Positions 2,150-13,009 of a stretch of 46,360 bases of DNA are shown here, one piece after another (position 1 is the stretch's first letter; each line of letters begins with the position of its first letter). Source of the stretch: Rhodospirillales bacterium. GTDB lineage: Bacteria > Pseudomonadota > Alphaproteobacteria > Rhodospirillales > JAPHRK01. The position numbers and the translations under genes are program-made. The stretch covers positions 1 through 46,360 of the forward strand of contig JAPHRK010000001.1 of assembly GCA_026196105.1 (NCBI GenBank). The letters run 5' to 3'. The notes beneath the pieces were generated by a model. That model was not told the DNA's origin and searched no databases. It saw only the letters and a program-made list of their open reading frames with translations.

Positions 2150-3490
2150 TTATTTTCGACAGAAAATAGCCACGGCTTCCATATGGGGGGAATAGGGAAA
2201 CTGGTCTACGGGTATAACGCGCTTTATTTCAAACCCGCCATCGACCAATAGACGCGCGTCACGGGCAAAAGTATTTGGATTGCAAGAAACCCCAACGACT
2301 GTGCTTATTGTCGACTCTGACAAAACCTGTGCTTGTTCTTGTGCTCCTGCACGAGGAGGATCAAATACCACTCCATCATATTCCTTTAGTTCTTTGACGG
2401 ACAAAGGCTGTCTTTCCAAATCCCGGACATTGCCTGTGATATTACCTCCAAGACCTGCCCGCCCTGCGGCTTGTTCCATGGCGGATATCATGACTTGAGA
2501 GGCTTCAAATGCATGAATAAGCGCCGTTTTTGCCATGGGAAAGCTAAAGGTCCCACAACCTGAGAATAAATCGGCAATCTTAGGACAGTCGCCAATTCCT
2601 TCAAGGACCTCATTAACTAATAGGCCTTCACCATCTTCACTCGGTTGTAAAAAACTCCCGGCGGGAATTTCTACAGGAACATCGCCAAAGAGAGCTTTTA
2701 TCGGTTTGCGCTGAACAACCGATTCAGGTGTTCCCCCTTTGTGGCGATTCCAGGAAATGCGTCCAATGTCATGTTTGTCAGCAAAGGCAGAGAGCTTTTC
2801 TAACCGATCAAGACTTAAGTCACCTGGAAGAGCGAAAACAATGTCCAGGAGGCCGTTAACAAAGTTGATTACCACGTCCCCTCGTTCTCCAGCATCCGTA
2901 AGATGGGGGATAAGTTTTTCTAAAGCCGGAATTAGTTGATTGATCTCAGGGACGAGAAGCAGGCAATGATCAATAGGCACAACTTGATGACTTTGACGGG
3001 CATTAAAACCAAAAACTAAACGTCCCCCCGCCCTGATCACCTCAAAAGAAACCCGGCGACGTTGGCCAATAGCTGCACTTTTTACGGGGAGGATTTCAGG
3101 GTGAAGTCCCCGGCGTGAAAAGGCATCAACGACAAGTTGTCGTTTCCAGTCCCCATAAAAGCTGGGTTCAAGGTGTTGTAGGGAGCAGCCACCACAGGTG
3201 CCATAATGAGGGCAGGGAGCCTCAAAACGATGCAGACCAGCTTCTTTGATCTCAACGATTGAGGAAGCAAAACCTTCTCCTCTTTTCGTCTCAGGCTTTA
3301 TGAGCAAACGATCACCTGGCACTGAGAATGGTACGAAATAGGTTTTGTCGTTACTTTTGGCAACACCATCACCTTTGCCGCCAAGAAATTCAATCTCGAC
3401 CTCAAGGGGTTGAGAATCTCTCGGTGAAAGTTTGTTGGCGCGTTTAGGTTTGCCTCGTCGAGGCTTATCCCGCCGTTTGGGAAAACTCAC
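2150..3490 (-). CDS. 23S rRNA (uracil-5-)-methyltransferase, RumA/TrmA family
   Basis: SAM-dependent m5U RNA methyltransferase. A basic N-terminus leads into a TRAM-like RNA-binding domain. A CX5CX2C cluster (CPHYGTCGGC) matches the iron-sulfur ligands of RlmD (RumA). The Rossmann SAM site appears as DLFSGCGTFSFPMA, followed by FDPPRAG and the catalytic cysteine in VSCNPNTFARD. Target specificity (U1939 or another uridine) cannot be read from sequence. I chose the GTG at 3490 because AAGGA sits 7 nt upstream. The frame can be extended to a TTG at 3541, but that would overlap the lipoprotein gene by 23 nt. It is the last gene of the Mla operon, 28 nt behind its neighbour. Confidence 0.88.
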   Translation of the reverse strand: MSFPKRRDKPRRGKPKRANKLSPRDSQPLEVEIEFLGGKGDGVAKSNDKTYFVPFSVPGDRLLIKPETKRGEGFASSIVEIKEAGLHRFEAPCPHYGTCGGCSLQHLEPSFYGDWKRQLVVDAFSRRGLHPEILPVKSAAIGQRRRVSFEVIRAGGRLVFGFNARQSHQVVPIDHCLLLVPEINQLIPALEKLIPHLTDAGERGDVVINFVNGLLDIVFALPGDLSLDRLEKLSAFADKHDIGRISWNRHKGGTPESVVQRKPIKALFGDVPVEIPAGSFLQPSEDGEGLLVNEVLEGIGDCPKIADLFSGCGTFSFPMAKTALIHAFEASQVMISAMEQAAGRAGLGGNITGNVRDLERQPLSVKELKEYDGVVFDPPRAGAQEQAQVLSESTISTVVGVSCNPNTFARDARLLVDGGFEIKRVIPVDQFPYSPHMEAVAIFCRK

Positions 3491-3518
3491 AGATTTATCC
3501 TTAAAATTTAAAACCCCT

Positions 3519-4127
3519 TTAGCGGGATTGAATATCAGCAATAAAGCGTTTGAAAATGGATGCCACAGCTTGGTTCATTGCTGCGACAGCAGTGGAAACA
3601 TTTTCATTCTTGTGGGTGACTTCTTGGCTGTAAGACTTAATAAAAACCAATTTGTCATCGGCCATGCTTTTAAGGCCTATTTCAAGTTCAACCAATACCT
3701 TTGGCTGCTTGCCGCCAATGATGCGTTCCAAATGGCGAATGCGGCCATTAATCGCAAAGTCAGGATTTAAACGCATCTCAGGGGTGATAATATTATCAGC
3801 GACTTTTGCATCTCTTAAGTAGGCAATAAGGCTGTCTTGGATAAGAGATGTCGGGCCTTCGGTCCAAAGATGATAATGGTATTCTTGAACTTCCTGTTCT
3901 TGGCCGGCCTCTGTAAAGAGGAGAGAACGACCTCCAACCAAGCCATCAGCCAGAAAACGATCAACTTCTACAATACCTTTTAAAGGCGAGGTGATAGGGC
4001 CACCCTCACTAACAATGCCCCCCAAGCGGTAATAATGGTCTTTTGGCAAAGGAGGTTGAGTGCAGGCGCTCAGCACAAAAAGTGCGGTTATCAGGATGAA
4101 CCCTTGGTAAAATTTACGATGTCCCAC
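3519..4127 (-). CDS. ABC-type transport auxiliary lipoprotein
   Basis: A 202-residue lipoprotein. The N-terminus is a classical type II signal peptide with lipobox LSAC, so Cys22 would be lipidated and the protein anchored in the inner or outer membrane. The body resembles the auxiliary lipoproteins (PqiC/DUF330-like) that accompany MCE transporters. The start is GTG at 4127, preceded by AGAGGGG. It follows the MlaD-like gene by 22 nt, in the order ATPase-MCE protein-lipoprotein common in alphaproteobacterial Mla loci. Inferred role: outer-membrane-side partner in lipid transfer. Confidence 0.82.
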   Translation of the reverse strand: MGHRKFYQGFILITALFVLSACTQPPLPKDHYYRLGGIVSEGGPITSPLKGIVEVDRFLADGLVGGRSLLFTEAGQEQEVQEYHYHLWTEGPTSLIQDSLIAYLRDAKVADNIITPEMRLNPDFAINGRIRHLERIIGGKQPKVLVELEIGLKSMADDKLVFIKSYSQEVTHKNENVSTAVAAMNQAVASIFKRFIADIQSR

Positions 4128-4149
4128 TATTTTGCCCCTCTTTACCTAA

Positions 4150-5121
4150 TTATTGCGCATTATCTTTAGGAGGTGTTCCCCCCAGAAGTAGTCCTGGGTT
4201 TTGCCGGATATGACGACTGAATTCATTTAAGTTACGGCTCGCCCCCTCAAGGTTTAGATTGATGGAATCAATCCGCCGGGCCGTGGTTTCCATAATGTAT
4301 TTTAAATCAACGACGGACTTATTTAAGTCCTGGCTGTTATTGAGAACCAAATCACTTGAGCCTTTGAGTAGCACATCAGCTTTTGACCGGGTTTTGTCAA
4401 GATTTGCGGTCAGAATTTGTAGATTTCGTGATGATTCTTGCAAGCTGGTCAGGGTGGTTTCCATTTTCTGGCGGTTGCCCGTGCTGAGAATTTCTTTCAA
4501 CTCAACCACGGCCTTGTCCATATTCTCAAGAATAGCAGGGGCTCTGGCGGCTAAAGAAGTGGAGGCTCCTTTAAGGTCGGAAATAATCCCAGTACCATCT
4601 TCACTCAATACCTTGTTGAAGGAGAGAACTGTTTCGTTGAGATTGGCAAGGAATGGCTTAATACTGGTTTCAGAAAGGTCACCAACTTGTCCAGCAACAG
4701 AAGAGAGCGCGGCAAACATGTCAGACTTTTCTCGTGAGGTAATCCGGGTTCCAGGCTTTAAAGCCTCGGTGCTGATACCTGCTTGCACACTGATGGTAAT
4801 GGCCGCAAGCAAACCAGGGGCCGCGATTTGAGCAATCGAATCTTTAGGGATTTTCCAACCTTCTGCCACGCTTAAAGCGACCCGAAACTGCATCCGACCT
4901 TCTTCTTCAAAAGGTTCAATATCTTCAACCTGGCCGATAGGGTAGCCCTCATATCTGATTTGAGTGCCATATTTTACCCCGGAGACGTTGTCATAAACGG
5001 CAAAATAGTTATCCGTTGATCCTGTCCGCCCTGTTAGCAAAGCAATCGCCACCAACAACAATACAACGGTCGTAATGACAAACCCACCAACGACTAGATA
5101 GTTGATTTTTGCGTTTTTCAT
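4150..5121 (-). CDS. mlaD: MlaD-like MCE-domain protein of a phospholipid ABC transporter
   Basis: Periplasmic lipid-binding subunit anchored by one N-terminal membrane helix (about residues 8-30). An MCE domain follows (about 38-115; YDNVSGVKYGTQIRYEGYPI is its diagnostic core). At 323 residues it is much longer than E. coli MlaD (183). The extra C-terminal part, rich in heptad-like Leu/Asn/Lys runs, is probably helical, as in longer MCE proteins that build a tube across the periplasm. It ends in a PPKDNAQ tail. The ATPase gene lies 7 nt upstream. MCE proteins form hexamers that carry phospholipid between the membranes. Confidence 0.9.
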   Translation of the reverse strand: MKNAKINYLVVGGFVITTVVLLLVAIALLTGRTGSTDNYFAVYDNVSGVKYGTQIRYEGYPIGQVEDIEPFEEEGRMQFRVALSVAEGWKIPKDSIAQIAAPGLLAAITISVQAGISTEALKPGTRITSREKSDMFAALSSVAGQVGDLSETSIKPFLANLNETVLSFNKVLSEDGTGIISDLKGASTSLAARAPAILENMDKAVVELKEILSTGNRQKMETTLTSLQESSRNLQILTANLDKTRSKADVLLKGSSDLVLNNSQDLNKSVVDLKYIMETTARRIDSINLNLEGASRNLNEFSRHIRQNPGLLLGGTPPKDNAQ

Positions 5122-5128
5122 ATCTCAA

Positions 5129-5950
5129 TCACCATACTGCATTGGGGCGAACATCGCCGCCAGTCAATCTGTTTAAATATTCCTCAGGGTCGAGGATGTC
5201 TTCCTCACTACGACGGTTGAGCAAATTCTGAATGCGCTCATTGTCGGTATTTTTAATTTCATCAACGGTGCCTGTAATCAGTGTTTTACCACGATCAAGA
5301 ACCGTAATTCGATCGGCAATAGTAAAGGCGCTGTCGAGTTCGTGGGTCACAACAGCAATGGTCATGTTCATGGCATCACGAAGCTTTAAGATGAGCTCAT
5401 CTAGTTGTTTAGAGACAACGGGGTCAAGGCCAGCAGAGGGTTCATCAAAAAACAAAAACCGTGGGTCCATGACAAGAGCCCGAGCGACCGCAGCGCGTTT
5501 GAGCATGCCACCTGAAAGTTCAGAAGGCATAAGCCCTTCAAACCCTGCGAGCTCAACCACCTCTAATTTAAGCCGGGCCATAATTTCCATGGTTTGGGGG
5601 TCAAGGGACGTGTGCTCTGCCAAAGGCAGCATAATATTTTCACCCACTGTCATGGAGCTAATCAAAGCTCCCCCTTGGAAGGCGACGCCGATTTTCTTAC
5701 GAAGATCAAAAGCTTCTTTCATGGGAAGTTTTTCAAGATCCTCCCCCATTAACTTAATGGAGCCCGAGGTGCGTGTTTCAAGACCCATCATGTGGCGCAG
5801 TAAGGTGCTCTTACCAGAACCACTGCCGCCCATTATGACGAGAATTTCACCCTCATAAACATCGAGATTAACATTATCGAGAATCATCCGGTCACCGTAA
5901 TGGGTGACCAAATCTTTGACTTCAATGACTTTTTTGCGTTCGTCCGTCAT
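5129..5950 (-). CDS. mlaF: MlaF-like ABC transporter ATP-binding protein
   Basis: Cytoplasmic ATPase driving the Mla transporter. Visible motifs are Walker A GGSGSGKST (residues 41-49), Q-loop region FQGGALISSMTV, signature LSGGMLKRAAVARAL, Walker B FLFFDEPSAGLDP and the switch histidine in VVTHELDS. The LSGGMLKR signature and the C-terminal tail past the nucleotide-binding fold are typical of MlaF/Mkl ATPases. Length is 273 residues, close to E. coli MlaF (269). It starts 1 nt after the permease gene, which suggests translational coupling. Confidence 0.93.
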   Translation of the reverse strand: MTDERKKVIEVKDLVTHYGDRMILDNVNLDVYEGEILVIMGGSGSGKSTLLRHMMGLETRTSGSIKLMGEDLEKLPMKEAFDLRKKIGVAFQGGALISSMTVGENIMLPLAEHTSLDPQTMEIMARLKLEVVELAGFEGLMPSELSGGMLKRAAVARALVMDPRFLFFDEPSAGLDPVVSKQLDELILKLRDAMNMTIAVVTHELDSAFTIADRITVLDRGKTLITGTVDEIKNTDNERIQNLLNRRSEEDILDPEEYLNRLTGGDVRPNAVW

Positions 5951-5951
5951 A

Positions 5952-6773
5952 TCATCTCGTTACCATGAAAGCGAAAATCATGTCAGTAACGATAATCGCT
6001 GAAATTGATTGTACAACGGCACGGGTTGTCACTCGCCCGACGCCCTCTGCGCCCCCGCGAACAGAAGCCCCATTGCCGATCCCGATGATGGTAATCAGAA
6101 TGGCAAAGATAAAACTTTTCGCCAAACCGTGCAGCACATCATCAAGGGAGAGAATATTGATAACCTGATCAAAAAAAGCGGCGAGGGAAATGCCTAGCTC
6201 AGCCCCCACATAGAGTCCTGCGCCTAAAAACATGATCAATTCTGCCATCCAAGTCAGGAGGGGGATCATAATCATCATAGCGAGCAGAGTTGGGACAACC
6301 AGATAACGAACCGGATTAATTGCCATAACGTGGAGTGCGTCGACCTCTTGATTGATGGTCATGGTGCCAAGCCTGGCAGCAAAGGCAGCTCCAGAGCGAC
6401 CCGCCACCAGAATACCCGTGATCAAAGAGGCAAATTCTCTTGAAACAGAAAGGGCAATACCAAAGGTAACTTGGGATTCGGCACCGAAAATGCGAAGTGA
6501 ATGAATGCCTTGAATTGCCAACATTATCCCGATGGTCAGAGACATAATGGCAACTATGGGAATGGCCTTAATGCCGACTTCCATCATTTGAGCGGCGATC
6601 TGATGAAGACGAACTGGCTGACGAAGTTTTGGCCCGGCAAAAACCCAGAAAATGCTCTCGGCTAGAAGCGACCCGCCATATCCGATTTCCTTTACACTGG
6701 AGACCGCATAGTGGCCGACATTTTCTACAAAGGCTTTTGCTTTATTTGGCTTTTGCTCGTCGGTTTCATCCAT
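5952..6773 (-). CDS. mlaE: MlaE-like ABC transporter permease
   Basis: Integral inner-membrane permease of the MlaE family, 273 residues with about five hydrophobic segments. The conserved cytoplasmic coupling stretch appears as GRSGAAFAARLGTM followed by NQEVDALHVM. The family core LVVPTLLAMMIMIPLLTW is also present. A charged N-terminal extension of about 25 residues precedes the interfacial helix. It starts 6 nt after the STAS gene. In E. coli the permease dimer binds MlaF and the MlaD hexamer and passes phospholipid across the inner membrane. Confidence 0.92.
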   Translation of the reverse strand: MDETDEQKPNKAKAFVENVGHYAVSSVKEIGYGGSLLAESIFWVFAGPKLRQPVRLHQIAAQMMEVGIKAIPIVAIMSLTIGIMLAIQGIHSLRIFGAESQVTFGIALSVSREFASLITGILVAGRSGAAFAARLGTMTINQEVDALHVMAINPVRYLVVPTLLAMMIMIPLLTWMAELIMFLGAGLYVGAELGISLAAFFDQVINILSLDDVLHGLAKSFIFAILITIIGIGNGASVRGGAEGVGRVTTRAVVQSISAIIVTDMIFAFMVTR

Positions 6774-6779
6774 GATCTG

Positions 6780-7103
6780 TTAGCCTATAGCCTCATCAAC
6801 AGAAGTGTGGATGGTAAAAATTTTATCCAAACGGGCCAATTGTAATACCCTCAGTGCTGATTCGCTGACCGCTGCAAGGCAGAAGGTTCCGCCATTTTTC
6901 CGGGCTGTTTGAAAAGATTCAACCAGACAAGCCACACCGGAACTATCAATGTAAGAGACGAGATGTAAATCCACAATAACAGCAGAGTTTTTACTCACCG
7001 CTGCCAGCAGTTCTTTGCGTGCAGTTGGCGAATGCTCCAAATCCACATCACCCTCAAAAGCTACGATAAGGGCTCCGTTTTTTTCTGTAGTACTTATTTT
7101 CAT
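6780..7103 (-). CDS. STAS-domain protein: anti-anti-sigma factor-like, candidate MlaB
   Basis: A 107-residue single STAS domain. The phospho-switch loop YIDSSGVACLVES is intact. The DSSG serines are residues 54 and 55, and in SpoIIAA/RsbV-type proteins a serine of this motif is phosphorylated. It lies 12 nt after the phosphatase/kinase-like gene and 6 nt before the mlaE-like gene. Two roles compete: an RsbV-like anti-anti-sigma factor, or the MlaB subunit that binds MlaF in E. coli. The position directly in front of the permease favours MlaB, while the DSSG motif and the upstream gene favour a phospho-switch. Both could be true. Confidence 0.88.
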   Translation of the reverse strand: MKISTTEKNGALIVAFEGDVDLEHSPTARKELLAAVSKNSAVIVDLHLVSYIDSSGVACLVESFQTARKNGGTFCLAAVSESALRVLQLARLDKIFTIHTSVDEAIG

Positions 7104-7115
7104 CGTTACGCTTTC

Positions 7116-8900
7116 TTATGCGATTTGTTTCATCATTCTCAAGATATTCCCCGTCTCCCCTTCAGGAGGTGGCAAGTAACGTACTCTGTCCATAACTTCA
7201 TTGATGAAGTGAGTTCCTAACCCCCCAGGGCGAATATCATCAAGAGCTCGTGGTTTTATTTTTGTTCGGTCCACTGTGGGGGCAAAATCCCTTAGCTTCA
7301 ACACAATATCACCATTTGACCGCCGAATACTAAGAATTACATCGCCTACACCGCCCCCATAAGCGTGTCGGATTATATTTTGGCAAGCTTCGTCAACGGC
7401 GATAACAACGTCTTGAGCGATACGGTCCGAACAGCCGCATTGCCCGGCGACGTTTAGGGTAGTTTGACGAACCAGTTTTAACATTGAGGCTTTGGAAGGG
7501 AAGTGTAGATCGACAAGCCAGTCAGCCCCAACATCCTGATCTACGTCTTCAATCTCATCTTTACTGGTTGTCGTCGTTTTTTGTTTTTCACTAGCGGCTT
7601 CTTTAAAGCTGGCGCTGAAATCTTGAACAGCGAGGATGGTCAGGTCATCACGCAAAATAACCCCCTCCCAATTGAGCAAGCTTAAAATCTCTTCCAGGCT
7701 TTGTTGCATTGGAAAGTCTTTCTTCTCATCCAGCAAAGCTTTTAGCCCGTCTATACCCAGCTCTTCTCCATTGTTGAGATAGCCTTCAGTAAGGCCATCG
7801 GTGAAGATATATAAGTTCCCTCCATCAAGATAAATTTCTTCAACAGGGAAGATGTCATTTTCAACAATATCGGCTGCAATACCAACCGGGGGGGCCTCAG
7901 CAGGGATATCTCTATAGGTCCCGTGTTTATCTTGATAAAGAGGCGGCTCATGTCCGGCGTTCGCCATGCGAAGTTTGCCCGACCATGGTTCAAGCAACCC
8001 GACAAGCATGGTTACAAAGCGCCCTTGGGTTGCTGTTTCACAAATCTCACGATTGATGTATCCCAAAAGATGTCCTGGGTCGGGAATGGTTTTTGATAAA
8101 GAGCGAAAGAGACTCGATGCTTTTGACATCGTGAGAGCGGCTGCCATGCCTTTACCGGAAACATCACCTAAGCAGAAGCAGATGCGCCCATCGTCTAAGG
8201 TTAAGAAATCAAAAAAATCACCGGAAACTGTACGGGCTGGAAAGTTCAGACCGCGGACGGGATAATCTTCTGGAGGAACATCGGGGATAAGGTAGCGTTG
8301 AATTTCTGCCGCGAGTTCTAGCTCACGTTGGACCTTCTCTCTCTCAACAAGTTCATCTGCCATGCGGGCATTGGTTATAGCTAACCCGGCTGAAGCGCTT
8401 AAGGCCATCAACATGTTCAGATCGTTAGTATTAAACAAACCATTATCACTATGTTTGTTTAAAACCTCGATTGCACCGATTCGCTGTTCTTTCACCCCCA
8501 TTGGGGCGCAAAGAATTGACCGGGTGGTAAAGCCGGTTTCTTTATCAACAGCTCCTTTGAAATTAGGATCTTTTTGAACGTCGCGGACTATTTCTCCGCG
8601 CCCTTCTTCAACGCTGCGTCCAACGATTCCATGTCCTGGATCTAACTCTAATCCGGTAATGTCCACGGGGCCAAAGCAAGCACGGCAGATTAGCTTATTT
8701 TTTATTTCATCAAGGAGAAAAAGAGCGCCCCCTTCAGCATTTAAATAATTGCAAATCCTGACCAGGGCTTTGTTAAGCGAGTCTTCGATATTACGTGAAA
8801 AGGTAAAATCCCGACTCATGGCCGAGAGTAATTCCAAGTGATCCCCGAAATTTTCCCCTACCGTTGCAAAAGCATCGTTTGTTGTAACTTGTTCTGACAT
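7116..8900 (-). CDS. GAF - PP2C (SpoIIE/RsbU) phosphatase - HATPase (RsbW-like) fusion protein
   Basis: A 594-residue cytoplasmic signalling protein. A GAF sensor domain (about 30-180) and a short coiled linker (LVEREKVQRELELAAEIQR) lead into a PP2C-type phosphatase (about 205-410). The phosphatase has its metal-binding aspartates in SGDFFDF, GDVSGKG, FTDGLTEG and RDDLTILAV. A C-terminal GHKL ATPase-like domain (about 465-590) has N-box DEACQNIIRHAY and GGLGTHF. The region usually holding the Asp-x-Gly motif reads LRDFAPTVD and looks degenerate, as is common in RsbW-like fusions. It probably phosphorylates and dephosphorylates the adjacent STAS protein in response to a GAF ligand. It is the first gene of the operon. 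No Shine-Dalgarno sequence is visible before ATG 8900. Confidence 0.9.
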   Translation of the reverse strand: MSEQVTTNDAFATVGENFGDHLELLSAMSRDFTFSRNIEDSLNKALVRICNYLNAEGGALFLLDEIKNKLICRACFGPVDITGLELDPGHGIVGRSVEEGRGEIVRDVQKDPNFKGAVDKETGFTTRSILCAPMGVKEQRIGAIEVLNKHSDNGLFNTNDLNMLMALSASAGLAITNARMADELVEREKVQRELELAAEIQRYLIPDVPPEDYPVRGLNFPARTVSGDFFDFLTLDDGRICFCLGDVSGKGMAAALTMSKASSLFRSLSKTIPDPGHLLGYINREICETATQGRFVTMLVGLLEPWSGKLRMANAGHEPPLYQDKHGTYRDIPAEAPPVGIAADIVENDIFPVEEIYLDGGNLYIFTDGLTEGYLNNGEELGIDGLKALLDEKKDFPMQQSLEEILSLLNWEGVILRDDLTILAVQDFSASFKEAASEKQKTTTTSKDEIEDVDQDVGADWLVDLHFPSKASMLKLVRQTTLNVAGQCGCSDRIAQDVVIAVDEACQNIIRHAYGGGVGDVILSIRRSNGDIVLKLRDFAPTVDRTKIKPRALDDIRPGGLGTHFINEVMDRVRYLPPPEGETGNILRMMKQIA

Positions 8901-9082
8901 GGGGACAATATGACGTGAAATATCTTACTCGGCAATTTTCATGTGCCAAAAAACTAAAAAAATGGCCCAAGAACATCTACCTATTTGCGTTTTTTGATAG
9001 TTGGGGTAAGCTTTCGTCATAGAATTAAAAATTTTTACTAATTAGAAGCGTTGATGTGCTCACAAACTAAAGGGATAAGATA

Positions 9083-9934
9083 ATGGGTGGGAAAGCCAAA
9101 AAGAAAAAAGTTGAAAGTGAAGTTCTGACACCTGGTGACGAGAAGGCAAAGCGCAAAAAGATTAAAAATACCGTTTATGAAGAAGAACTTGCGCGACTTC
9201 ATGTTGAATTAGTTAAGCTTCAAGAGTGGATCAAAGCTAAAAACCTTAAAGTGGTTGTTATCTTTGAAGGCCGAGATGCGGCAGGTAAGGGCGGAACCAT
9301 TAAACGTATTATGGAACCCCTTAATCCGCGTATTTGTCGGGTCGTTGCTCTGGGCACGCCTACCGAGCGGGAAAAAACTCAATGGTACTTCCAACGGTAT
9401 GTGCCTCATCTTCCTGCAGGCGGCGAAATGGTCTTATTTGATCGTAGCTGGTACAACCGGGCTGGTGTTGAACGGGTCATGGATTTCTGTACAGATGAAG
9501 AATATCAGGAGTTTTTACGCTCTTGCCCAGAATTTGAACGGATGCTGGTTCGTTCCGGTATTATCGTCATTAAGTACTGGTTCTCTGTTTCAGACGAAGA
9601 ACAAGAACGCCGTTTCCAAGGTCGAGTTGAGAATCCAATCAAACGTTGGAAACTGAGCCCCATGGATTTGGAATCTCGGGACCGCTGGGTAGAATATTCA
9701 CGGGCTAAAGATGTTAACTTTGCCCATACGGATATTAAACAAGCTCCTTGGTTTGTGGTTGAGGCCGATGTGAAAAAACGGGCGCGGTTGAATTGCATCA
9801 ATCACCTGTTGAGCCAGATCCCTTATGAAGATTTAACTCCAGGTCCAATTAAGCTTGAAAAACGCAAAGGCGATCTTAAGGGCTACGTTCGTCCTCCGAT
9901 CGACGACCAAAGCTTTGTTCCTGAAAAATTCTAA
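9083..9934 (+). CDS. ppk2: Polyphosphate kinase 2 (PPK2)
   Basis: Transfers phosphate between polyphosphate and nucleotides. The 283-residue protein has one PPK2 domain. Walker A is GRDAAGKGG (residues 63-71). The CRVVALGTPTEREKTQWYFQ stretch and Walker B/lid region VLFDRSWYNRAGVERV are family hallmarks. The short, single-domain form fits the group that mainly phosphorylates nucleoside diphosphates, but specificity is not certain from sequence. The N-terminus is lysine-rich and probably disordered. AGGG lies about 9 nt before the ATG. It is transcribed divergently from the phosphatase/Mla operon and appears to be a single-gene unit. Confidence 0.93.
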   Translation: MGGKAKKKKVESEVLTPGDEKAKRKKIKNTVYEEELARLHVELVKLQEWIKAKNLKVVVIFEGRDAAGKGGTIKRIMEPLNPRICRVVALGTPTEREKTQWYFQRYVPHLPAGGEMVLFDRSWYNRAGVERVMDFCTDEEYQEFLRSCPEFERMLVRSGIIVIKYWFSVSDEEQERRFQGRVENPIKRWKLSPMDLESRDRWVEYSRAKDVNFAHTDIKQAPWFVVEADVKKRARLNCINHLLSQIPYEDLTPGPIKLEKRKGDLKGYVRPPIDDQSFVPEKF

Positions 9935-9960
9935 GGTTTCACCTTAGATACATTAGTGTT

Positions 9961-10000
9961 GTCATGGCCGGGCTTGTCCCGGCCATCCACATTTTAGTGG
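9961..10000. repeat. Palindromic intergenic element with 9-bp perfect stem
   Basis: Arms ATGGCCGGG (9964-9972) and CCCGGCCAT (9978-9986) flank the loop CTTGT. A second small hairpin CCAC/GTGG (9987-9990, 9997-10000) follows, and then T7 at 10006-10012. From memory, a very similar palindrome is a frequent dispersed repeat between genes of many alphaproteobacteria. Here it may also act as the terminator of the polyphosphate kinase gene. Only one copy is present in the window. Confidence 0.6.
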
Positions 10001-10032
10001 CTTAATTTTTTTGTATTAGGTTCTTAATATAG

Positions 10033-11424
10033 ATGCCCTTAACTTATATTTCCCAAAAAACAAAAGGGGCAGTCCCTGTAACCCTTTTAACTAAAAACCA
10101 GTTTAAGCGCTGGGTATCGTCACAAAGCAAAGCTGTTAAGGCTTCTCTTGAGACGGCTGAATTTACGGCTGCACCTGGGACATTCTTCTTGCTCCTAAAC
10201 GGCAAGGGGAGACTCCAGCAGGTTATTGCGGGGATTAGTGGAAATGAGCCGATTTGGGATTATGCTTTCCTGCCCTCTGCTTTACCAAAAGGGCGCTATT
10301 ACTTAGACAAGAAGCTAAGCACTAAAGCGGCGACAGAAGCGGCTTTAGGTTGGGTTTTAGGAACCTATAAATTTACCCGCTATAAACCGTCAAAAGCGAG
10401 TTACGCTACTCTTTGTTTGCCACCTAACTGTGATGCTAAAAAGGTGGGTCAATCGGCCCGTTCAATTTATCTGGTACGTGATCTGATTAATACGCCGGCC
10501 GAAGACATGGGGCCAGATGATCTTTATGAAGCCACAATGAAGGTTGCGGAAAGTTTTGGAGCCTCCTGCTCAGCCATCATTGGCGAAGATCTTTTGGAAG
10601 AAAACTATCCTGCCGTTTATGCGGTTGGTAAAGGCAGCGACAACCTTTCTCATCTGATTGACTTAACATGGGGCCAAGAAAACCACCCTAAAGTCACGCT
10701 GGTTGGCAAAGGAGTTTGTTTTGATTCAGGTGGGCTAGATATTAAGCCTGCAGGCAACATGCGTCTGATGAAAAAAGATATGGGAGGGGCGGCCCATACC
10801 TTGGGTCTTGCGCGGATGATTATGGCGGCCAATTTACCCGTTCGCTTGCGTCTTATCATTCCGGCTGTGGAAAACTCTGTTTCAGGTCGTGCCATGCGAC
10901 CCTTAGACGTGGTGCCGACACGTTCGGGCAAAACTATTGAAATCGGTCATACGGATGCGGAAGGTCGAGTAATTTTAGCCGATGGACTTGCTGAAGCCGT
11001 GAGTGAAAAACCTGACTTGCTTATTGATATGGCAACCCTGACTGGAGCGGCTCGTGCGGCCCTTGGCACAGATTTACCAGCTCTTTTTAGCAACAAAGAT
11101 GATTTAGCGGCTGAGGTGGTAGAAGCGAGCAAAACTGCGGGTGACCCCCTTTGGCACATGCCCCTTTGGCACCCTTATCGAGGCATGATGAACTCATCAG
11201 TAGCAGATATTTCCAACGACTCGAATTCTCCTTACGGAGGGGCAATAGCGGCAGCTCTTTTCCTTCATGAATTCGCAGGTGATAAAATTCCTTGGATACA
11301 TATGGACCTGATGGCCTGGAACACATCGAGCCGCCCAGGACGACCAGAAGGAGGCGAAGCGATGGGAATGCGGGCTCTCTATACGCTCATCGCCAAACGC
11401 TGGCCTGCTAAGGGTTCCCGTTAA
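10033..11424 (+). CDS. Leucyl aminopeptidase family protein (peptidase M17)
   Basis: Cytosolic zinc or manganese aminopeptidase of 463 residues. The catalytic C-terminal domain carries the two-metal site: VGKGVCFDSGGLDIKPAGNM, then KKDMGGAA, then HTDAEGRVILADGLAEA (usually NTDAEGR, here with His first). WHMPLWHPYRGMMNSSVAD and GGAIAAALFLHEF follow as in the family. The N-terminal domain is the divergent substrate-binding lobe. Typical PepA is about 500 residues, so this is the slightly shorter alphaproteobacterial type. The Shine-Dalgarno before ATG 10033 is weak. Role: removal of N-terminal amino acids in peptide turnover. Confidence 0.92.
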   Translation: MPLTYISQKTKGAVPVTLLTKNQFKRWVSSQSKAVKASLETAEFTAAPGTFFLLLNGKGRLQQVIAGISGNEPIWDYAFLPSALPKGRYYLDKKLSTKAATEAALGWVLGTYKFTRYKPSKASYATLCLPPNCDAKKVGQSARSIYLVRDLINTPAEDMGPDDLYEATMKVAESFGASCSAIIGEDLLEENYPAVYAVGKGSDNLSHLIDLTWGQENHPKVTLVGKGVCFDSGGLDIKPAGNMRLMKKDMGGAAHTLGLARMIMAANLPVRLRLIIPAVENSVSGRAMRPLDVVPTRSGKTIEIGHTDAEGRVILADGLAEAVSEKPDLLIDMATLTGAARAALGTDLPALFSNKDDLAAEVVEASKTAGDPLWHMPLWHPYRGMMNSSVADISNDSNSPYGGAIAAALFLHEFAGDKIPWIHMDLMAWNTSSRPGRPEGGEAMGMRALYTLIAKRWPAKGSR

Positions 11425-11464
11425 ATCAAGTTAAAAAACTAATAAAAGATTAACAATAACGGTT

Positions 11465-11570
11465 GCCGGGAGGGTCACCCTTCGGCTAAAAAGAGTCGAG
11501 ACCGAAATGATTTTTGGCTAAGGTGAATCCTTTCTAAAAGTCATATTTCGGAAGGTCGAAACCTTGTACG
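11465..11570 (+). other. Possible structured leader upstream of the MarR-type gene
   Basis: The 163-nt gap before the regulator holds several nested complementary stretches. CCGAAAT (11502-11508) pairs with ATTTCGG (11545-11551). AAGGT (11552-11556) and ACCTT (11561-11565) close a CGAA tetraloop. GGG (11472-11474) could pair with CCC (11478-11480). GGCTAA occurs twice (11484 and 11515). I do not recognise a known RNA family, and the pairing has not been tested by folding. Confidence 0.25.
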
Positions 11571-11587
11571 AAAAGTAAGTATCCATC

Positions 11588-11941
11588 ATGTCCATAGACA
11601 TCGAACCAGTCCAAGCTCTCGATCTTTGGCGCGCAGCCATTTTAGAAAGCGTACGCCGTGATTCTCCTGATTTATCAGCTCGCCAAATGGCAATTATCCT
11701 GGCAGTTTACCTAACCCCTCCACCCCACACGGTGCGCGGATTAGCTAAAGAGCTGGATGTTTCTAAACCTGTGATTACCAGGGCAATTGATAAGCTTGGT
11801 CAGCTAGAACTTCTTCGTCGTAAAGTTGATGAAAGTGACCGCCGCAGCATCCTTATTCAGCGCACTGTTAAAGGCTCTGTTTTCTTAAGGGAATTTGGCG
11901 AAATCATTTCAGCTGCCGGCGCTGCAATCGGTGAAAAATAA
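11588..11941 (+). CDS. MarR-family winged-helix transcriptional regulator
   Basis: A 117-residue DNA-binding protein. The winged helix spans about residues 30-100: LSARQMAIILAVYL, then the recognition helix region GLAKELDVSKPVITRAIDKL and the wing VDESDRRSILIQRT. It is shorter than classical MarR proteins (about 140) and lacks most of the C-terminal dimerisation helix, so it belongs to the compact alphaproteobacterial group. Effector and targets are unknown. It follows a leader with possible RNA structure and ends 54 nt before the convergent NDUFA9-like gene. Confidence 0.85.
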   Translation: MSIDIEPVQALDLWRAAILESVRRDSPDLSARQMAIILAVYLTPPPHTVRGLAKELDVSKPVITRAIDKLGQLELLRRKVDESDRRSILIQRTVKGSVFLREFGEIISAAGAAIGEK

Positions 11942-11954
11942 GATTTTTTAAGTG

Positions 11955-11988
11955 TTCAGGGTGCTGAATTATTTATCAACACCCTGAA
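11955..11988. terminator. Stem-loop between convergent genes
   Basis: TTCAGGGTG (11955-11963) and CACCCTGAA (11980-11988) form a perfect 9-bp stem with a 16-nt loop. It lies between the converging ends of the MarR-type and NDUFA9-like genes. No U-run follows on either strand, so it may block read-through or stabilise 3' ends rather than be a classical intrinsic terminator. Confidence 0.5.
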
Positions 11989-11995
11989 TGAATGC

Positions 11996-13009
11996 TTAAG
12001 CCAAACGAGGTGATTGGCTTCGTTGGGGACGGAAGCGTTGTAAGTAGGTAGGCAGAATGATTTCTGCTGGTGTTGGCTCAATGCCGAGTTGCGCCAAACC
12101 TTCCGCGTTAGGGTCCATGATATGGTCACTTTGCAACTGGGTCAGTTGATCCCGTGTCAGTAGAGGGTTAGGGAATTTCTCGATAAACCAAGCACCAAAT
12201 TTAGCAATACCAAAGGGAATTGGCGCCAACAAGCGTTTGCGCCCGGTGTTTTCAAGCAACATCTCCATCAGCTGCTTAAAGCTATAGACTTCTGGTCCGG
12301 CGAGTTCATAGCGTTTTCCGTCAGTAGAGTGATCTTCAACCGCGACCATGATGGCCTTAGCAACATCATCAACATAAACGGGCTGGAATTTGGTCCCGCC
12401 GTCGCCATAGAGGTCAATGTCGATAACTTTATCATCTTTGAAGAAGGATACTTTGGGGATCACTGGGCAGCCAAATACGGGCAGGGCCACGGTAAGGCGC
12501 ATAATTCCGGCAAAGAGATTGAAGAATTGATCTTCAGCACCAAAAATAACATGAGGCCGGAAAATTGTGGCTTCAGGGTAAGCCGCTAAAACGGCTTCTT
12601 CGCCAGCAGCTTTTGTTTTCGCGTAAACTGAAGGAGAGTCGGGGTCAGCTGATTGGGCAGAAACATGAATAAGTTTTGAAACTCCAGCCGCTTTCGCCGT
12701 TTTTGCAATCCGGCCAGCCCCTTCTACATGGATCGTTTCAAAAGACTGTTTGCCCCACTCAGCAAGAATCCCTGTGAGGTTAATAACACAATCGGCCCCT
12801 TCAATGGCAGCCTGCACAGCTTCGTCACTACGGGTCGAAGCTGAAATCGGCACCACCTGCCCGACTTCGCCTGCCGTTTTTAGGTATTCAGCCGCCACAG
12901 CATCGCGCACCGCGACCCTTACTGAAGCACCCGTTGCCGCTAAACGCCGCACAACGTACCGACCTAAAAATCCTGAGCCACCAAAAACGGTTACCAATTG
13001 CTGAGCCAT
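11996..13009 (-). CDS. Complex I NDUFA9-like NAD(P)-binding protein
   Basis: A 337-residue atypical short-chain dehydrogenase. The N-terminal nucleotide-binding motif is GGSGFLGRYVVRRL (residues 10-23), followed by DCVINLTGIL. The usual catalytic Tyr-Lys pair is seen only as SVYAKTKAAGE. PVYVDDVAKAIMVAVED and YELAGPEVYSFKQL are typical of the NDUFA9/39-kDa complex I accessory family. Bacterial members are widespread in alphaproteobacteria. Roles in complex I stability or quinone biosynthesis have been proposed for relatives, but none can be assigned from sequence here. ATG at 13009 is preceded by AGGGGACCCCT-type sequence. Confidence 0.85.
   Translation of the reverse strand: MAQQLVTVFGGSGFLGRYVVRRLAATGASVRVAVRDAVAAEYLKTAGEVGQVVPISASTRSDEAVQAAIEGADCVINLTGILAEWGKQSFETIHVEGAGRIAKTAKAAGVSKLIHVSAQSADPDSPSVYAKTKAAGEEAVLAAYPEATIFRPHVIFGAEDQFFNLFAGIMRLTVALPVFGCPVIPKVSFFKDDKVIDIDLYGDGGTKFQPVYVDDVAKAIMVAVEDHSTDGKRYELAGPEVYSFKQLMEMLLENTGRKRLLAPIPFGIAKFGAWFIEKFPNPLLTRDQLTQLQSDHIMDPNAEGLAQLGIEPTPAEIILPTYLQRFRPQRSQSPRLA

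Follow-up and report, generated by a model that had tools for sequence, protein, structure and literature searches.

Partner switches pair a STAS protein with an RsbW-like kinase, which binds and phosphorylates it, and a PP2C phosphatase, which frees it; in the RsbV/RsbW/RsbU and SpoIIAA/SpoIIAB/SpoIIE switches the output is a sigma factor. Here we describe a six-gene operon from a Rhodospirillales bacterium, on the minus strand at 3519-8900 of a 46,360-nucleotide stretch of contig JAPHRK010000001.1 (assembly GCA_026196105.1), which is called the window below. By sequence and fold matches the operon shares with these switches a STAS protein, an RsbW-like kinase and a PP2C phosphatase, but its likely output is the ATP-binding cassette (ABC) transporter to which they are linked.

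Three other systems come close. E. coli MlaFEDCB has MlaE, MlaF, MlaD, a free STAS subunit (MlaB) and a C-terminal extension of MlaF with a Tyr-x3-Leu pattern, all shared with the window operon, whereas mlaC lies in its operon, MlaD is short and Thr52 stands at the site in question (PMC7367683, PMC5016091). Both papers proposed that MlaB is controlled by phosphorylation and neither names a kinase in its available text; one of them states that there is no experimental evidence for MlaB phosphorylation and leaves the question open. The Mla-Pqi chimeric (Mpc) lipid transporter of Hyphomicrobiales consists, in the part of the source available, of MpcE with an N-terminal STAS domain, MpcF, a long MpcD and a PqiC-like MpcA (PMC12436622). 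It shares MlaE, MlaF, the long MCE protein, the PqiC-like lipoprotein and the lack of MlaC in the operon with the window, and differs in that its STAS domain is fused to the MlaE N terminus, while the window STAS is a separate gene. Functionally, the nearest analogue that we found is SypE/SypA of Vibrio fischeri, in which a single protein with both serine kinase and phosphatase activity targets Ser56 of a STAS protein; there, as far as the available text goes, the output is biofilm formation via an unknown target, with no linked transporter (PMC8256260).

We put the probability at roughly 70% that the operon codes for a lipid transporter of the envelope with a dedicated partner switch, that is, a detachable STAS subunit switched by its own kinase/phosphatase. 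On the observed gene set, its linkage, its residue conservation and the joint occurrence of MlaF tail and free STAS, and by joining results on E. coli MlaFB with the logic of partner switching, we infer STAS-MlaF binding, STAS phosphorylation, the direction of control and the signal. The transporter would consist of the MlaE-MlaF core, the long MCE channel and the PqiC-like lipoprotein. Unphosphorylated STAS would dock on MlaF, held by the MlaF C-terminal tail, and the transporter would need it to be assembled and active; the HATPase domain would bind the same STAS face and phosphorylate Ser54, upon which STAS would leave MlaF; and the PP2C domain would reverse the phosphorylation, with the GAF domain setting the kinase/phosphatase balance. 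In E. coli, MlaF depends on MlaB to join or stay on the complex, and the phospho-mimic MlaB T52E loses MlaF (PMC7367683, available text). With somewhat less assurance, we lean towards regarding this as a third kind of architecture among MCE lipid transporters, one where the ATPase-permease assembly would be controlled post-translationally by a GAF-fed serine kinase/phosphatase through a detachable STAS protein, the output of the switch being an ABC transporter and not transcription.

Gene content and predicted switch residues

The preliminary description of the locus, made by reading the window, listed six genes separated in gene order by 12, 6, 1, 7 and 22 nucleotides, and open reading frame (ORF) calls confirmed both order and gaps. 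All six products have Pfam matches over cut-off. The first gene (7116..8900; this and all other operon features lie on the minus strand) encodes a 594-residue fusion of a GAF domain (residues 36-175; 8376..8795), a SpoIIE/PP2C phosphatase domain (residues 236-426; 7623..8195) and an RsbW-like HATPase_c_2 kinase domain (residues 467-591; 7128..7502), predicted to act as sensor, phosphatase and serine kinase. It is followed by a STAS protein of 107 residues (6780..7103), the MlaE permease (5952..6773), the MlaF ATPase (ABC_tran; 5129..5950), a long MlaD/MCE protein of 323 residues (4150..5121) and a PqiC-type auxiliary lipoprotein of 202 residues (ABC_trans_aux, PF03886; 3519..4127). All six genes being assigned otherwise, the operon holds no mlaC, a negative that covers the operon and not the remainder of the genome. 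By gene content the transporter is nearer to Mpc than to E. coli Mla, and Mpc-like is the better name, because its lipoprotein is of the PqiC type, its MCE protein is long and mlaC is missing from the operon. Of the features of canonical Mla, the operon has MlaE, MlaF, MlaD, a free STAS protein and the C-terminal extension of MlaF.

Conservation of the fusion protein was followed across the fetched loci. The kinase retains the Glu and Asn of its N-box, the Asp that comes next and the GGLG sequence at 52 of 52 loci, and the Asp residues of the phosphatase motifs are present in 47 to 50 of 50. In the GAF domain, four residues of an NKFDE-like motif (N, K, F and D) are kept in 46-49 of 50, with the final Glu mostly replaced by Leu; the domain may bind a cyclic nucleotide. 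A single ORF covers the GAF-PP2C and HATPase parts in 36 of 52 genomes and two ORFs do so in 14 (a few of which have in-frame stops and may be errors), the two parts being adjacent overall in 50. With the PP2C and HATPase_c_2 domains assigned by Pfam and their catalytic residues conserved, the one protein beside the STAS gene is predicted to carry both opposing activities, in line with the earlier description.

The STAS protein keeps DSSG at the predicted phospho-site, as had been noted for the window, and so do all 53 of the linked STAS proteins. E. coli MlaB has DTGG at 51-54, and its Thr52 aligns with the first Ser of DSSG, so that of the pair Ser54/55 proposed before, Ser54 alone (codon 6942..6944) is the equivalent residue. 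In a structure model built from the single sequence (mean pLDDT, a predicted local confidence score, 80.8, with three of five models below 50), Ser54 begins a helix. The best fold match of this model is RsbV from an RsbV/RsbW complex (Z 16.6, 1.5 Å over 99 residues), followed by SpoIIAA (Z 13.8), P. aeruginosa MlaB (11.8) and E. coli MlaB (10.9), the range for MlaB being 10.3-11.8. One locus (L105, G106:C57, 1276-2009) has two tandem STAS genes between the HATPase gene and mlaE, with DSSG in both. In three others (L102, L103, L104) a STAS relative, 47-50% identical and with DSSG, lies near ispDF- or ispF-like genes, with cutA in two (names by reading); it is possibly a second client of the kinase.

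Linkage of the putative switch and the transporter

The distribution of the module, by which we mean the fusion protein plus STAS, was compared with that of the transporter in 60 genomes of the order, using the fusion protein, the MlaE family and STAS, and window-type MlaE was surveyed in 144 genomes of the class and 398 of the phylum; the window's own genome is counted in every sample, and thresholds were strict, which makes the class and phylum counts lower bounds. Within the order, 44 of the 60 genomes have both the module and a window-type MlaE, two have the module alone, none has MlaE alone and 14 have neither (Fisher value 7e-12, in a calculation that ignores relatedness). Two genomes, G028 and G055, matched with PP2C parts alone and were left out of the count of module genomes. 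Four families (f14, f18, f22, f23) each hold one member with both module and MlaE and another with neither, which suggests that module and MlaE were acquired or lost jointly on several occasions.

Gene order is equally constant. At the 50 fetched loci of the order and class sets with an intact MlaE, STAS lies directly upstream in 50 and HATPase upstream in 49, the single exception (G034) being split by a contig break, with HATPase at the end of another contig. Downstream, MlaF is found in 50 of 50, the MCE gene in 49 and the lipoprotein gene in 47, and the misses reach contig ends. Window-type MlaE occurs in 53 genomes overall (44 of the order, five further ones of the class and four further ones of the phylum), and in 51 of these STAS stands directly upstream, preceded by HATPase (across contigs in G034); the exceptions are G281 and G242. 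Since 51 of the 53 keep this arrangement, the gene association is, judged from these genomes, not due to chance.

Beyond the order the operon becomes rare. Window-type MlaE was found in at least 6 of the 144 class genomes, own genome included, each with STAS and HATPase upstream, and in at least 6 of the 398 phylum genomes (own, G088, G329, G342, G281, G242), among which G329 and G342 again have STAS and HATPase with it. Because so few class genomes were found to carry this MlaE, the module is, on these counts, largely confined to this order, and the survey across alphaproteobacteria that the preliminary description proposed was too wide a frame. In a scan of named genomes, which returned two loci (L051 and L052), a Thalassospiraceae metagenome-assembled genome (L051) has the full operon, as read from its ORFs. 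A plasmid search gave no match. A diverged HATPase-STAS-MlaEFD-lipoprotein operon was also seen in a class genome (L136, G186:C3, 13377-17396), its MlaE on a very long branch and, by reading, the Walker A, signature and Walker B motifs of its MlaF altered; this transporter is possibly inactive or repurposed.

The MlaF tail and transporters with a fused STAS

In E. coli MlaF, Tyr261, Leu265 and Leu266 of the C-terminal extension sit in a groove by MlaB (PMC7367683, available text), and we confirmed these positions against the sequence. The linked MlaF proteins share a conserved C-terminal end resembling QNLLNRR..E...DPDEYLRRLTGE, with a Leu four places after the Tyr; in the window the extension covers residues 246-273 (5132..5215), including Tyr258 and Leu262. 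The tail pattern [YW]x3[LFIM] is present in 47 of 48 linked MlaF proteins, the window's included, and in 2 of 23 Mpc-type MlaF proteins, both matches falling inside the core; Mpc-type MlaF proteins stop shortly past HPWIREYFHG. Left out of these counts were L105, which is cut at a contig end, and L072 and, for Mpc, L110, whose over-long ORFs lie beyond the distance rule. The MlaF tail thus occurs with a free STAS, as it does in E. coli, although a single history could account for a large part of the pattern. A structure model of MlaF from a two-row alignment, which drew a helix at residues 255-262, was set aside for its mean pLDDT of 44.8.

The own genome has two MlaE genes: the operon copy, and one paired with mlaF on contig 49, where none of the genome's STAS matches falls. 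The genome's other MlaF (L099) lacks the tail. In the class sample, MlaE proteins 35-45% identical to the window's are of the Mpc type, with a STAS match in five of five tested (four over cut-off). These Mpc-type loci differ from the window as follows: the residue at the phospho-site of the fused STAS domain is Thr in 21 of 23 (Ser in one, Val in one), MlaF has no tail, and neither HATPase nor GAF-PP2C gave a match in any of the 25 loci around the less similar MlaE genes, one of which is of the canonical type. The MlaE tree separates 24 rows of the fused type (support 100/98), 3 rows of the canonical type and 55 rows of the window type (99/97).

The same parts and contacts would also serve control in the reverse direction, in which kinase and MlaF compete for STAS and the module senses what state the transporter is in, signalling onward via the fusion protein. 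The MlaF interface of MlaFB includes the phospho-site (PMC7367683, available text), and because of this MlaF and the kinase should exclude each other on STAS. Pfam recognised no further output domain or gene in the fusion protein or the operon, and we consider reverse control improbable.

Contrary evidence, neighbouring genes and implications

Several observations weigh against a switch dedicated to the transporter. In one genome of the order (G018) the fusion protein and STAS are intact beside an mlaE cut to 82 residues and a downstream lipoprotein remnant, with no MlaF or MlaD match left at the locus, and in another (G017) the module stands without any transporter gene adjoining. Conversely, in G281 of the phylum sample the transporter is present with no module adjoining, and HATPase-STAS and GAF-PP2C-STAS pairs, whose STAS proteins are 33% and 32% identical to the window's, lie elsewhere in the genome; in G242, MlaE lies close to the beginning of its contig, and no MlaF match above 10 bits was obtained within 7 kb. 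GAF-PP2C is not adjacent in 2 of 52 genomes (G002 and G186, the latter with the diverged operon). Against the MlaB model the window STAS scored 25.2 bits, below the cut-off of 90. Top covariation values (mutual information with average-product correction over 45 loci, too few sequences for adequate power) were no higher for STAS with MlaF (0.279) than for the controls MlaD (0.390) and lipoprotein (0.369), and STAS with HATPase (0.378) was likewise not singled out; the value for MlaE was 0.294. Finally, because E. coli MlaB T52A is inactive though assembled (PMC5016091, available text), the residue at the Thr52/Ser54 position may, by analogy, be important without phosphorylation. The phospho-gated transporter proposed in the preliminary description is partly supported, by the dedicated linkage, the intact residues, the MlaF tail with a free STAS and the joint absence in members of four families, and gains no support from covariation.

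The T52A result fits a reading in which STAS, like MlaB in the usual view, is a permanent structural subunit, with the Ser serving MlaF catalysis and the kinase/phosphatase tuning another process. It would also accommodate the Thr-bearing fused STAS domains with no kinase match nearby. The invariance of the kinase residues in all 52 loci argues against it, as does the persistence of kinase-STAS adjacency where PP2C is not adjacent (L054, L136), and we rate it the least likely of the alternatives.

The genomes with a module and no intact transporter (G017, G018) raise instead classical transcription control, in which the STAS/HATPase pair would target a sigma factor or other regulator encoded elsewhere, its place in the operon serving co-expression only. 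In model comparisons STAS scores best against anti-sigma antagonist models and HATPase against RsbW models, and the own genome has a second partner-switch set, STAS then a SpoIIE-REC-HATPase protein (G000:C7:42972-44975; L005, L017), unrelated by position to the operon's transporter. Yet MlaE without the module occurs in 0 of 44 genomes and, where the preliminary description would have been refuted by a module apart from mla in most relatives, just 2 of 46 module-bearing genomes have it without MlaE. The MlaF tail accompanies the free STAS, no sigma factor gene was present among the genes run through Pfam at 2150-13009, and tests of an RsbVW pair in R. capsulatus found, in the text available, no sigma partner (PMC3999984). 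Transcription control is unlikely, if less so than reverse control, and we continue to favour the dedicated transporter switch.

Other features were seen around these loci. The G018 locus (L067, G018:C10, 6453-9251) looks like an operon caught in decay, its module intact beside the mlaE and lipoprotein remnants. In G281, GAF-PP2C lies beside one STAS (L158, G281:C96) and HATPase beside another (L156, G281:C35), both away from the transporter. In the window, a divergent PPK2 polyphosphate kinase gene (9083-9934) lies upstream of the operon; a single, weak promoter-like site on the minus strand (8949-8922) is no more than expected by chance; and an ORF with a partial tRNA (uracil-5-)-methyltransferase match (2150-3541) overlaps the end of the lipoprotein gene.

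A search at title and abstract level, with subscription papers and preprints outside its range, found no published description of this kinase/phosphatase-STAS-transporter association; the parts are known and their combination is undescribed at that level, by which we do not claim its absence in print. Comparison of the transporter types suggests a rule: where STAS is a free protein bearing Ser, a kinase and an MlaF tail accompany it, and where it is fused and bears Thr, neither does. With a candidate kinase and phosphatase in the same operon, and often in one protein, the idea that phosphorylation controls the STAS subunit becomes testable with purified parts. If the reading is true, partner switching would extend from transcription to the direct control of an ABC transporter, and the operon would show how envelope lipid traffic could be switched on and off quickly.

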